The notes below the pieces were generated by a model. It saw nothing but the letters and a program-made list of their open reading frames with translations. It searched no databases and had not been told where the DNA came from. The position numbers were made by a program, and so were the translations under genes. A stretch of 64,000 bases of DNA, from the NCBI RefSeq assembly GCF_003614945.1, contig NZ_QYCZ01000001.1, positions 266,001-330,000 on the forward strand. Direction: 5' to 3'. The stretch comes from Bergeyella cardium (GTDB lineage: Bacteria > Bacteroidota > Bacteroidia > Flavobacteriales > Weeksellaceae). Shown here one piece after another: positions 5,015 through 55,116 of the stretch (positions within the stretch are counted from its first letter, which is position 1; every line of letters starts with the position of its first letter).

Positions 5015-5034
5015 AGACCTGTCTAACTGAGACG

Positions 5035-5042
5035 CAAAAGTA
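5035..5042 (-). promoter_or_regulatory. -7 promoter box for the alpha/beta hydrolase gene
   Basis: On the minus strand the bases read TACTTTTG, a match to the Bacteroidota -7 consensus TAnnTTTG, 20 bp before the ATG at 5014. No TTG was seen at the usual -33 spacing. Confidence 0.55.
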
Positions 5043-5125
5043 CGAAATAAGATAGAAATATACCGTAGCCTGCATCTGCTTTTCTGTACGGATGGAGGAG
5101 AAACAAACCTACTCAATTTTTTTTT

Positions 5126-5336
5126 GGATTGAAGTCAATTTTTGGAGAGATGAAAGTCGCATTTTTTAAAAAGGCAGTCAGCCTCTAAAAAAACACAGTC
5201 AGTTTTTGAAAAAACGCAGTCAGTTTTTTGAAAAAGGCAGTCAGTTTTTGAAAAAGGTAGTCAGTTTTTTTACCTTCTCTGTGGGTTTTGGAAATCAATA
5301 ACTTATAGAGGTGAATTTTCATCCTTTTGGAAGCTG
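5126..5336. repeat. Dispersed intergenic element, long copy, with five 21-bp core units
   Basis: This stretch fills most of the gap between the divergent hydrolase and rsmH promoters. Its left flank (from GGATTGAAGTCAATTTTTGG) and right flank (CCTTCTCTGTGGG to CTTTTGGAAGCTG) match the element at 39058-39186 almost base for base. The core has five CAGTCAG-type boxes (the last is TAGTCAG), starting at 5175, 5196, 5217, 5238 and 5258, spaced 21, 21, 21 and 20 bp and flanked by A and T runs. The other copy has a single unit, which accounts for the 82-bp length difference. No ORF of note lies within it. Confidence 0.9.
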
Positions 5337-5379
5337 TTCAAAATTCCGTATTGCTTAAGGCTTAGTACGCGAAAAATGC

Positions 5380-5387
5380 TACATTTG
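5380..5387 (+). promoter_or_regulatory. -7 promoter box for the dcw cluster (rsmH)
   Basis: TACATTTG matches TAnnTTTG and ends 21 bp before the ATG at 5409. It lies inside the longer in-frame version of rsmH, which supports the shorter start. The nearest TTG (5351-5353) is 26 bp upstream, longer than the usual spacing. Confidence 0.6.
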
Positions 5388-5408
5388 TACCCGAAAAAAA
5401 AGATAGAG

Positions 5409-16352: not shown

Positions 16353-16492
16353 CACAAAAGGCACCTCCCGCAACGCAAAAGGTACCTTCCGCAACACAAA
16401 AGGTACCTTCCGTAGCACGAAGGAAGCTAAATGCAACGCGTAGCAAGCGAAATGTAATGCGTAGCAAGCAAAATGCAACGCAAAGAAAACAA
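16346..16492. repeat. Seven contiguous degenerate 21-bp tandem units between murG and murC
   Basis: Units start at 16346, 16367, 16388, 16409, 16430, 16451 and 16472, each exactly 21 bp. The first four follow the pattern YCCGYARCRCRAAGG-rich, for example TCCGCAACACAAAAGGTACC; the last three begin AATGYAAYGC, for example AATGCAACGCGTAGCAAGCG. Because 21 is a multiple of three, short ORFs stay open on both strands across the array, but these look like by-products. The murG stop codon is within unit 1. No terminator was recognised. Confidence 0.9.
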
Positions 16493-16519
16493 CAGTATTA
16501 AATACTATATATAAAAGGA

Positions 16520-39057: not shown

Positions 39058-39186
39058 GGATTGAAGTCAATTTTTGGAGGGATGAAAGTCGTATTTTTAA
39101 AAAAGGCAGTCAGTTTTTTTACCTTCTCTGTGGGGTTTGGAAATCAATAACTTATAGAGGTGGATTTTTACACTTTTGGAGGCTAT
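39058..39186. repeat. Dispersed intergenic element, short copy, with one core unit
   Basis: This 129-bp copy of the element at 5126-5336 lies between the rnc stop and the promoter of the IPExxxVDY gene. Only about 10 substitutions are seen in the flanks. It has a single GGCAGTCAG core between A and T runs. In both places it sits in the same orientation upstream of a minus-strand gene with a TACTTTTG promoter box. Confidence 0.88.
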
Positions 39187-41744: not shown

Positions 41745-43532
41745 TTAGTAGTTATATCCTTTTATTTTATCTTTATGAGGAGCCCAATCTTGGTGGGTAT
41801 GGTATGCATTAAGACTTGCTTGAGGGACATAGAAAGTACAATTTATATCGAATGTTTCAGTTAAGGAGGGAGGGGTTGTAGCTCGTATATAGACTTCTGC
41901 ATTCTTGTTTAGTTGACGAAGATTTCCATCTTGAATTTCTTTAATAGTTTCTCCCAGAATAACCTTTTTTAAGTTAGGTAGGACATGTATAGCTTCTGAT
42001 GTCAGAGTTATTATAGAATCTAGGGTGAGTGTTTCTAAACTTGTTAATCCATGGAAAGCACGTTCTTCTACTGTAGTAACTTTAGGAAGGTTAAGAGTGG
42101 TTAGCTTAGTATCGCCAAAGGCTCCCCAACCTATTGAAGTAGCATTAGGTAGGCTTATGCTTGTTAACCCACTGTTTTCGAAAGCATAACGATTTACTGT
42201 AGTAACTTTGGGGAGGTTAAGAGTGGTTAGTTTTGTTCTAGAGAAAGCGCTTTCACCTATTGAAGTGGCTTCGGGTAGATTTATGCTTGTTATATTTGTA
42301 CTTTCGAAAGCACGTCCTCCAATTATTTGTGCTTTAGGGAGGTTAAGAGTGGTTAGTTTTGTTCTAGAGAAAGCGCTTTCACCTATTGAAGTGGCTTCGG
42401 GTAGATTTATGCTTGTTATATTTGTACTTTCGAAAGCATGTCCTCCAATTATTTGTGCTTTAGGGAGGTTAAGAGTGGTTAGTTTTGTTCCAGAGAAAGC
42501 ATACCAACCTATTGAAGTGACTTCAGGGAAGTTTATATCTGTTATTTTAGAGCCCCCAAAAGCCCTTTCTCCAATAGTAGTAACTTTTGGAGCCGAAATG
42601 TTTGTTAAATGAGTGTTATAAAAAGCCCAGCTCCCTATTAAGGTAGCTTCTGGTAAGCTGATATTAGAGAGATTGCTGTCTTCAAAAGCACTTTTGCCTA
42701 CAGAGGTTACAGAAGGGAAATTGGCGGTAGTTAGTAGTTTGGTGTATGAGAATGCATTTTTCTTAATCGTAGTTAGTTGAGATAAGTCAATACTTTTTAA
42801 ATTGCTTTTTTGGAATATACCATCTTCTGCAATTTTTAAATTAGGAAGATTGAGTTCAGTTACCCCTTTATTCTCTTCAAAAGCGTGCTCTTCTATTTCA
42901 GTTACAGATTGGGGGATGGTTACCTTTAAGTCTTTAGTATTTTGAAAGGCATAATTACCTATTTTAGTAACACCATCTTTTATAATAAATGTCTTAATAC
43001 CACCAGAGTTTTGTAATAATCTTTCGCTTATAGTAGTTACATTTGCCATATCAGAATATTGATTCATATCTATATTCTGGGTGTATTTATTTAACCATTG
43101 CATTAGTACAGTACCATCTGCACTTATGATATAGTCAAGTTTGGGTGCTGTTTTTTGTAGCGGCTGCCAAGTAGTACCATCGTAGAAGTAGAAGCCTTTT
43201 GCATTTACATTTGCTACAAGAGCATCAGCTGTGGTATTTTGTCCTTCGGTATAATTATCTACATTGCTGATATATACTAATGTGGATTCTACAGGTTCTG
43301 TTATTTTAGCAATACTTACTTTGCTCAGGTTTGGGATAATGATACCCTGGTTAGCTGTTTCATCAGTGGTTTTAACCTCTATATCCAATGTAGCTCTTGG
43401 GGAAATAGAGTTGATACCTATTCTCCCAACATCCTCTTTTTGAGGAGCTGCAGGAGTGCTTTGTGCAAAGCTGTTAGCAGTAATTCCTAAGAAGCAGGCA
43501 ACGGCTGCATTCAAAAATAGTTTCGTACTCAT
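41745..43532 (-). CDS. Secreted BspA-like leucine-rich-repeat protein
   Basis: The 595-residue protein has a signal peptide (MSTKLFLNAAVACFLGITA), then a head region of a type common in Weeksellaceae surface proteins (GRIGINSISPRATLDIEVK ... GFYFYDGTTWQP), then about 15 leucine-rich units of about 21-23 residues of the BspA/LRR_5 type, such as FSRTKLTTLNLPKAQIIGG. No sorting domain was recognised at the end (WAPHKDKIKGYNY), so attachment is unclear. BspA-like proteins bind host proteins in oral Bacteroidota; a binding role here is inference. Residues encoded by 42211-42462 contain a 42-residue duplication. Confidence 0.88.
   Translation of the reverse strand: MSTKLFLNAAVACFLGITANSFAQSTPAAPQKEDVGRIGINSISPRATLDIEVKTTDETANQGIIIPNLSKVSIAKITEPVESTLVYISNVDNYTEGQNTTADALVANVNAKGFYFYDGTTWQPLQKTAPKLDYIISADGTVLMQWLNKYTQNIDMNQYSDMANVTTISERLLQNSGGIKTFIIKDGVTKIGNYAFQNTKDLKVTIPQSVTEIEEHAFEENKGVTELNLPNLKIAEDGIFQKSNLKSIDLSQLTTIKKNAFSYTKLLTTANFPSVTSVGKSAFEDSNLSNISLPEATLIGSWAFYNTHLTNISAPKVTTIGERAFGGSKITDINFPEVTSIGWYAFSGTKLTTLNLPKAQIIGGHAFESTNITSINLPEATSIGESAFSRTKLTTLNLPKAQIIGGRAFESTNITSINLPEATSIGESAFSRTKLTTLNLPKVTTVNRYAFENSGLTSISLPNATSIGWGAFGDTKLTTLNLPKVTTVEERAFHGLTSLETLTLDSIITLTSEAIHVLPNLKKVILGETIKEIQDGNLRQLNKNAEVYIRATTPPSLTETFDINCTFYVPQASLNAYHTHQDWAPHKDKIKGYNY
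42211..42462 (-). repeat. 126-bp tandem duplication inside the leucine-rich-repeat gene
   Basis: Copies 42211-42336 and 42337-42462 differ at a single base (CACGTCC versus CATGTCC), which changes Arg to His in the encoded units. A partial third copy continues for 28 bp. The period equals 42 residues, two leucine-rich units, so the frame is kept. Confidence 0.95.
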
Positions 43533-49444: not shown

Positions 49445-50569
49445 ATGGAGATAAAAAAAGACCGAATTTTTGGATTGGACATTATTAGAATGCTGGCTAT
49501 TCTATTTGTAATGATTACCCACGCAGCGAAGTTTATTCCTGCAAAATATGCTAAATATTATTCCGCTTTATATTATGATGGTGTAGGTATTTTCTTTGTT
49601 TTGAGTGGATTTCTTATAGGGCATATTTTTATTAAACAAATGGAAAGTAAGGGTCTCTCGCTAGAAGAAATGAAAAATTTCTGGATAAAGCGATGGACAA
49701 GAACTTTACCTAATTATTATTTGATTTTAATTATTCTTTTTGTAATACAATACAATACAATACAATACAATACAATACAATACAATACAATATCTTATTT
49801 AATTTTCTCCCAGAACCTGTTTAGTAATATGCAGCATAGTTTCTTTGAATGGTCTTGGAGTTTGAGTGTGGAAGAATGGTTTTATTTATTGCTTCCGTTG
49901 TTTGCTTTTATATTAAAGCTCCTTAGATTCTCTCTGAAAAATATTATGTTGATTATAATTTTGGGAGGGTTATTTATTATCCATTTCTTTCGTTTTACAT
50001 ATCTATTTTCTATTAATGATTTTAAATATGAAGATTTTGAGGTTATTAGATATTCAGTTTTTTATCGTTTAGATGGAATTATGTTTGGGGTTTTGGCGTC
50101 CTATATTTATTTCTATTACAGAGGTTTTTGGGATAAGAATAGAAAGGTAATGTTTTGGATGGGGATTATTGCTTTTATTTTGAGTAATTTTTTAGATAAA
50201 GTTATAGGAGTAAATAACTTTTTATACAGAACAATAGAATTAAGTATTACTTCTATTACCATATTATTGATTTTACCTTATATGAACTCTATAAAAACCA
50301 GCAATAGTAAATTATATAAACCGATTACTTTTTTGAGTATAACTTCATATTCATTATATCTTATTAATAGTATTGTGCAAATGGGGTTAGCAAAAATAGT
50401 AGAATATTATGATGTGAATGAATATTATAATATAGTACCTTGGTCGGCTATGTTTGTTATTTGTTATACTTCATTTTGGGGCGTGTCTATTCTTTTATCT
50501 TATTGGTTTTATAAATACTATGAGATAAGGGCTACTAATTATCTAAGAAAGAAGTTCCTTCCTAAGTAG
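49445..50569 (+). CDS. OafA/YrhL-like membrane acyltransferase with in-frame pentanucleotide repeat
   Basis: The 374-residue protein is an acyltransferase-3 family member with about ten membrane segments. The N-terminal FGLDIIRMLAILFVMITHAA has the conserved His of the family, and WSLSVEEWFYLLLPLF is the typical second motif. Such enzymes O-acetylate surface polysaccharide or other envelope sugars. Between membrane segments, about residues 100-116, the DNA is nearly ten AATAC units giving YNTIQ repeats. In the present state the frame is open to the end. The gene is clearly more AT-rich than its neighbours, suggesting transfer. No partner polysaccharide genes adjoin it. Confidence 0.9.
   Translation: MEIKKDRIFGLDIIRMLAILFVMITHAAKFIPAKYAKYYSALYYDGVGIFFVLSGFLIGHIFIKQMESKGLSLEEMKNFWIKRWTRTLPNYYLILIILFVIQYNTIQYNTIQYNTISYLIFSQNLFSNMQHSFFEWSWSLSVEEWFYLLLPLFAFILKLLRFSLKNIMLIIILGGLFIIHFFRFTYLFSINDFKYEDFEVIRYSVFYRLDGIMFGVLASYIYFYYRGFWDKNRKVMFWMGIIAFILSNFLDKVIGVNNFLYRTIELSITSITILLILPYMNSIKTSNSKLYKPITFLSITSYSLYLINSIVQMGLAKIVEYYDVNEYYNIVPWSAMFVICYTSFWGVSILLSYWFYKYYEIRATNYLRKKFLPK
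49744..49792 (+). repeat. Pentanucleotide microsatellite (AATAC) 9.8
   Basis: Nine complete AATAC units and a tenth AATA lie inside the acyltransferase coding region. Loss of one unit would bring a TAG at 49822-49824 into frame; gain of one would bring TAA at 49800-49802 into frame. Both would truncate the protein at roughly residue 120-125. Confidence 0.97.
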
Positions 50570-54725: not shown

Positions 54726-55116
54726 TAGCTAGCCGCTAAAAACCATCAGCCATCAGCTTTCTTTATTACGAAAAATTCAATAAAACGGACTAAAAAATAT
54801 CGATGTAATGTATAAAAATACGAATGTAACGCTCAAAAATGCCAATGCAACGGGTAAAAACGCCTCTGCAATGGGTAAAAATGCCTCTGCAACTATCTAA
54901 ATCAATAAATCAATGCTAAGATTAGCGCTGCAACTAGTAAAAATAAAAAATACGCTATAAAAAATCAATCATCAACTATAAAAATTGAAAAATGCTCAAT
55001 CTATTTAATATCAGTTATTTAAATAAAAACTGCTCCTGCCCTTAATTAATAGTAAAAAAGTAATAAAAGGGTCTCTACCCCTCCTCCTTATTTAATAAAG
55101 AAAGGGTCTCTGACCC
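54726..55116. other. 391-bp intergenic region with a 21-bp tandem array
   Basis: The region between the convergent waaA and glycosyltransferase genes holds the array at 54802-54906, AT-rich sequence without an ORF, and two copies of AAAGGGTCTCT (about 55066 and 55101). The second copy is part of a short hairpin, AAGGGTC-TCT-GACCCTT at 55102-55118, overlapping the glycosyltransferase stop. Confidence 0.65.
54802..54906. repeat. Five degenerate 21-bp tandem units after waaA
   Basis: Units start at 54802, 54823, 54844, 54865 and 54886, each exactly 21 bp; the fifth is only half conserved. Typical units are AATGCAACGGGTAAAAACGC(C) and TCTGCAATGGGTAAAAATGC(C). The unit at 54844 shares 14 of 21 positions, including AATGCAACG, with the unit at 16430 in the murG-murC array. 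Confidence 0.85.

Follow-up and report, generated by a model that had tools for sequence, protein, structure and literature searches.

Known elements with expandable cores

Interspersed elements with an expandable core are already known, although the open-access literature has dealt with each of them as one sequence family. The BOX elements of Streptococcus pneumoniae have the build boxA-boxB(n)-boxC (PMC3049150). Like the element described here, they are short, dispersed and intergenic, they hold a variable number of tandem core units between conserved end modules, and they have a predicted RNA stem-loop. They differ from it in that the core here is of 21 bp, the hairpin lies in the 3' module alone, and there are only six copies, far fewer than for BOX. 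The BOX host belongs to a different phylum from this genome, and the likeness is drawn from organisation, not from a comparison of sequences.

Within the same phylum, the BrickBuilt and MITEPgRS (MITE464) elements of Porphyromonas gingivalis consist of a leader, an expandable minisatellite (23 bp; 41 bp) of 1 to 22.8 units and a tail, and repeat lengths of 22, 23 and 41 nt are reported from the species (PMC4596501). These elements too are intergenic, species-restricted and expandable in their core, but the sequence and length of their unit differ from those of the 21-bp unit here, their stem-loops arise from direct repeats where a 3' hairpin is present here, and they carry IS5-type terminal inverted repeats, of which none were found in the element here. 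A further point of comparison is found in Bacteroidetes such as Elizabethkingia, where heptamers, TAACTGA among them, form direct repeats; in Elizabethkingia anophelis two near-identical intergenic regions contain larger heptamer assemblages (PMC4679880). What these share with the present element is the direct repetition of a short word between genes, again in the same phylum. TAACTGA, however, lies mainly near start codons, whereas here the repetition is of AGTCAG with a 14-bp spacer, in no fixed place relative to genes.

A family of six intergenic copies

The element lies in a window of 64,000 nucleotides (C1:266001-330000) of a flavobacterial genome of 1,959,232 bases (1.96 Mb) in three contigs. 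A sequence-only reading of this window had described two copies 34 kb apart. Both are real and are placed as described, with a flank match of 95% on the left (56 bp) and of 91% on the right (91 bp), but a search of the whole genome with copy B as query gives six copies rather than two, every one of them intergenic and all with E-values below 1e-12. Copy A, of full length, is at window positions 5126-5336 (genome 271126-271336) on the plus strand, between a minus-strand alpha/beta hydrolase gene and the plus-strand rsmH (mraW); copy B is at 39058-39186 (genome 305058-305186), also on the plus strand, between rnc and the next minus-strand gene. The four additional copies (E-values 1e-25 to 5e-13) are on the minus strand, at genome positions 1647876-1648019 (C), 1828761-1828896 (D), 727140-727324 (E) and 1739270-1739424 (F), and identity among the copies is 80-91%.

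In this regard, a covariance model of the 3' module has exactly six genome matches, which are the same copies (E-values 9e-23 to 2e-15), and short-range pairs of CAGTCAG occur 10 times across the genome, all within the element family, while a reversed-pattern control gives none. Since there are four more genome copies, and since short-range CAGTCAG pairs are confined to the family, the repeat is not a product of chance. It had been suggested that a lack of further copies, together with a lack of conservation in relatives, would point to a simple segmental duplication. The full element is indeed not conserved in relatives, but further copies exist and sit in unrelated contexts, and simple segmental duplication is therefore rejected. 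In the flanks of copies C, D, E and F, other dispersed repeats adjoin, namely TAGCTATTAGCTAAAAGCCAGTTGCC runs and CACCGTAGCCGGTGAGGC-type words.

Genomic position and insertion

Copy A is placed between divergent genes (the hydrolase gene and rsmH), and copy B separates the end of rnc from the start of the minus-strand gene that comes next. Copies C and E lie between convergent genes, the latter after gyrB, copy D follows prfA in a tandem gene pair, and copy F lies between tandem genes on the opposite strand. In other words, the copies have no constant relation to a gene, a promoter, a gene strand or a gene end. A general role as a UTR element, one of the roles first put forward, is unlikely on these grounds. 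Similarly, the TACTTTTG box described 20 bp ahead of a minus-strand ATG does occur at A and at B, but it is not a general feature, given that other copies are flanked by convergent genes or follow prfA.

Direct evidence of insertion comes from locus B. The two genes at this locus overlap in every one of 16 relatives, the overlap being 11 bp or more, whereas here a gap of 184 bp, which contains the element, separates them; copy B is therefore an insertion. This is a gene-level comparison at the one locus, the nearest relatives belonging to other genera. As regards a target-site duplication, the ends of the element vary from copy to copy, and the empty site is seen at the level of genes. The region between the alpha/beta hydrolase gene and rsmH (window 5015-5408) is, for its part, missing mraZ, which is present there in nearly all relatives examined.

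The empty site in relatives at locus B is a feature in common with MITEs, from which the element departs in its absence of terminal inverted repeats. Such repeats, which had not been seen in the two window copies, were found in none of the six when the outer 90 bp of the ends were searched for a 14-bp inverted match with at least 12 identities, and for this reason the element is not filed as a MITE. Mobilisation as a REP element by a Y1 (RAYT/IS200-type) transposase was also considered and rejected, since the genome has no match to the Y1 transposase (PF01797), for which the same search is positive in 5 of 14 control genomes. As to an autonomous partner, a whole-genome search with the element gave the six copies only; a partner sharing just short ends would escape it.

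The 21-bp array

Each copy is made up of a left array of units starting with AGTC and a right hairpin module of 47 bp at the 3' end. The left module is common to A and B, the right hairpin module is in all six copies, and between them there are 3-7 units: when degenerate AGTC units are included, the counts are seven in A, three in B, four in C, three in D, five in E and four in F. The array of copy A runs from 5133 to 5278 on the plus strand, with its seven AGTC-units at 5133, 5155, 5176, 5197, 5218, 5239 and 5259 (spacings 22, 21, 21, 21, 21 and 20); Tandem Repeats Finder independently calls the core of this copy with a period of 21 and 5.3 copies. The array of copy B (39065-39125, plus strand) has three AGTC-units, at 39065, 39087 and 39108, one of which is an exact CAGTCAG. 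Copy A had been credited with five CAGTCAG words against one in copy B. The latter count stands, but in A the word is exact four times (5175, 5196, 5217 and 5238) and the fifth is TAGTCAG (5258). The spacings of these CAGTCAG-type words are 21, 21, 21 and 20 bp, as originally given, and the length difference between the copies does correspond to about four units (82 bp vs 83 bp). The initial description of the element as dispersed, intergenic and expandable is thus borne out by the six copies, the range of 3 to 7 units and the insertion into a normally overlapping gene pair.

Over the whole family, 16 of the 20 unit intervals are of 21 bp; three are of 22 bp, all at the leftmost unit, and one is of 20 bp. 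The four bases AGTC are identical in 26/26 units and position 9 is always T, the make-up of the unit being AGTC, then A or G, then a T-run and an A-run. The lengths of these runs vary, and the spacing is kept despite the divergence of the units. In copy E the last unit is inverted, giving GCAGTCAGTTTTTCTAAAAACTGACTGC and then T7, which is an intrinsic-terminator-like hairpin after gyrB (L012 1970-2025, minus strand).

A unit of 21 bp is also one of seven codons (KKAVSFL), such that the array could be conceived of as a degenerate coding repeat; 21 and 42 are both divisible by 3, and copy B has an open plus-strand frame of 22 codons. The frame, however, is broken by the 20- and 22-bp units and interrupted by stops within copies A and C-F, and non-triplet periods (22, 23 and 41) are found among other arrays of the genome. 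A coding origin is accordingly rejected on frame, and the chance that it is correct is very small.

The 3' hairpin module

The hairpin module, which the sequence-only reading had missed, is at 5269-5315 in copy A, on the plus strand only, with 20 consensus pairs, many of them G-U, and is predicted to fold at 39118-39164 (plus strand) in copy B. The predicted plus-strand fold is good in five of the six copies, with z-scores of -3.4 (A), -2.2 (B), -3.2 (C), -2.4 (E) and -2.0 (F); that of copy D is -0.3. In the hairpin alignment there are 32 G-U cells as against 3 A-C cells, and the minus strand therefore pairs less well.

A plus-strand hairpin predicted in all six copies, and paired less well on the minus strand, would be in keeping with an RNA element or small RNA that is transcribed from the plus strand and in which the hairpin acts on stability, termination or binding. 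The plus strand of copies C, D and E continues that of the upstream gene, which agrees with this, as does the terminator-like hairpin at the end of the array of copy E. Three copies, on the other hand, are antisense to, or divergent from, the neighbouring gene, and Rfam has no model that matches at gathering threshold within the window. Moreover, covariation in the hairpin is not above that of shuffles, 415 of 500 of which reach the observed value, and pair-keeping is no better than under a transition-biased null (p 0.12-0.5). The bias towards G-U over A-C cells shows which strand could fold; for selection it is weak evidence, because covariation is within shuffles and because pair-keeping changes are to be expected under a realistic excess of transitions. 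Overall, a function in RNA appears unlikely.

Distribution outside this genome

With the 129-bp copy as query, no full copy was found in 59 relatives, and the 26-bp hairpin word, with 3 mismatches, had no match in 148 family genomes. A search of 84,980 genomes for an exact word returned a single match, in a Bacteroidales MAG, which has no array beside it and looks like a chance occurrence. Covariance-model matches in relatives are weak, the best having an E-value of 9e-4 in one genome. An origin from a virus, plasmid or phage was rejected, there being no significant match in IMG/VR, PLSDB or INPHARED. The genus is represented by one genome, and the variation in unit number is that seen between copies within it.

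Pieces of array do occur elsewhere. In another genus (G004:C164:711-774, L118) there are two CAGTCAG words 21 bp apart and a degenerate third (E-value 5e-8), with no hairpin, downstream of a fabD-like gene. A look-alike array piece is present in a further genome (G072, L120), and the remaining array-like matches in relatives are of low complexity or coding. A related genus (G001, L155 8716-9798) has a long TTCCGCT array with periods of 20-21 and 62.

A common period among unrelated arrays

Words in the intergenic DNA of the window recur with peaks at distances of 21, 42 and 63 bp, of which the CAGTCAG element is not the sole cause. Unrelated arrays of period 21 also lie within 16353-16519, where CAAAAGGTACCTTCCGCAACA and then CGTAGCAAGCAAAATGCAACG is repeated (16353-16481), and within 54726-55116, where the repeated word is AAAAATGCCAATGCAACGGGT (54813-54993). 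This class of arrays, which extends across the genome, had likewise escaped the earlier description. It was surveyed in the window together with 20 stretches of 20 kb across the chromosome (464 kb in all; G000:C1, L132-L151), four of which were positioned to include known copies of the element, an array being defined as three evenly spaced occurrences of a 7-bp word, with a step of 9 to 60 bp. Arrays are present in 22 of 220 intergenic regions, and in 21 of these 22 the period is 20-23 or 40-46 bp; shuffled sequence gives 3.2 arrays, distributed over all spacings. Individual spacings are 21 bp (13 cases), 22 (six), 23 (two), 41 (three), 42 (seven), 43, 44 and 46 (one each) and 37 (one), and periods of one or three helical turns (10-11, 31-32) are almost absent. 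The repeated words are mostly unrelated to each other (TCACTAATTAGTGA, ATACTCA, CATCGCATTAA, GGGTCTCTGACCC, TTTCATCACTACGAAAT, TCGCYCGAGAGAGCGA and others), and three more period-21 arrays are concealed within spurious reading frames. Dispersal, in the sense of occurrence at two or more of the sampled places, is also seen for at least five other array families; in one of them, of 23 bp, both flanks are common to copies with 3 vs 6 units.

Of 581 regions surveyed in 15 relatives (1.2 Mb), no more than 6 qualify, and the array periods are scattered. As some stretches had been placed on purpose over copies of the CAGTCAG family, the comparison sets that family aside: periods of two or four turns then account for 17 of the 18 remaining arrays here, while in relatives the proportion is 6 of 22 (Fisher p = 2e-5, a value that is optimistic since the range of 20-23 and 40-46 bp was picked after the data were seen). 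Two other repeats of the window lie in reading frames. AATAC is repeated 9.8 times at 49744-49792, inside an acyltransferase-like frame (49445-50569); a change in its length would shift the frame, which makes it a candidate for phase variation. At 42074-42536 there is a coding tandem repeat of 126 bp (6 x 21), which forms the leucine-rich repeats of a BspA-like surface protein (41745-43532).

The near-uniform period may point to a common constraint on length. It could also be asked whether a mutational process alone is responsible, in which replication slippage or template switching in this lineage favours units of about 21 bp, with no function or binding protein, and ordinary recombination between repeats disperses them. 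Unrelated sequences do have the same period, and the intergenic regions that bear arrays are longer (median 396 vs 180 bp) and show no preference for gene orientation, as would be the case for tolerated DNA. Slippage alone, however, leaves the shared flanks and the hairpin of the dispersed copies unexplained, and other unit lengths are nearly absent from intergenic DNA even though frame is irrelevant there. As a full account, mutation alone is doubtful.

Origin of the element and its significance

The best reading of the element is as a non-coding, non-autonomous interspersed repeat of modular, BOX- or BrickBuilt-like build. With a probability of about 0.6, we take the six dispersed copies, their intergenic location, their modular build, the insertion at one site and the differences in unit number, all of which are directly observed, to be those of a modular interspersed repeat (3-7 units of 21 bp and a 47-bp 3' hairpin) that has spread within the lineage and is constrained in unit length. 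Whether by transposition or by recombination, the copies would have spread in this lineage long ago, as judged from the 80-91% identity of the copies. Slippage or unequal recombination would then add or remove units, while a constraint would hold unit length near two helical turns and would act also on the many unrelated arrays of the same genome.

This constraint on period most likely acts at the level of DNA. One option is that unit-binding proteins line up along one face of the helix; another is a process of duplication that proceeds in steps of two turns. The idea that the boxes are placed on the same DNA face, raised when only copies A and B were in view, gains indirect support, since unrelated arrays here also step by about two helical turns, and that earlier interpretation as a whole is partly supported. 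Simple phasing, however, does not explain the near absence of one- and three-turn periods, which leaves room for a fixed-length duplication, and 21 is also a multiple of 3 and of 7, so helical phasing has competitors as the reason for this number. A tentative extension is that the arrays of this lineage constitute a genome-wide class of dispersed intergenic elements unrelated in sequence, with a period of two or four turns set by a helix-measuring protein or enzyme, of which CAGTCAG would be one family.

What appears to be new here, judged against open-access papers, is the presence in one genome of many unrelated array families whose common feature is a period of about two helical turns or double that. 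The repeat lengths of P. gingivalis (23, 41 and 22 nt) match array families found here, which suggests by analogy that the two-turn rule may reach beyond the genus. If the rule is general in Bacteroidota, the purpose or origin of intergenic minisatellites would become measurable, by means of a half-turn change in their spacing.
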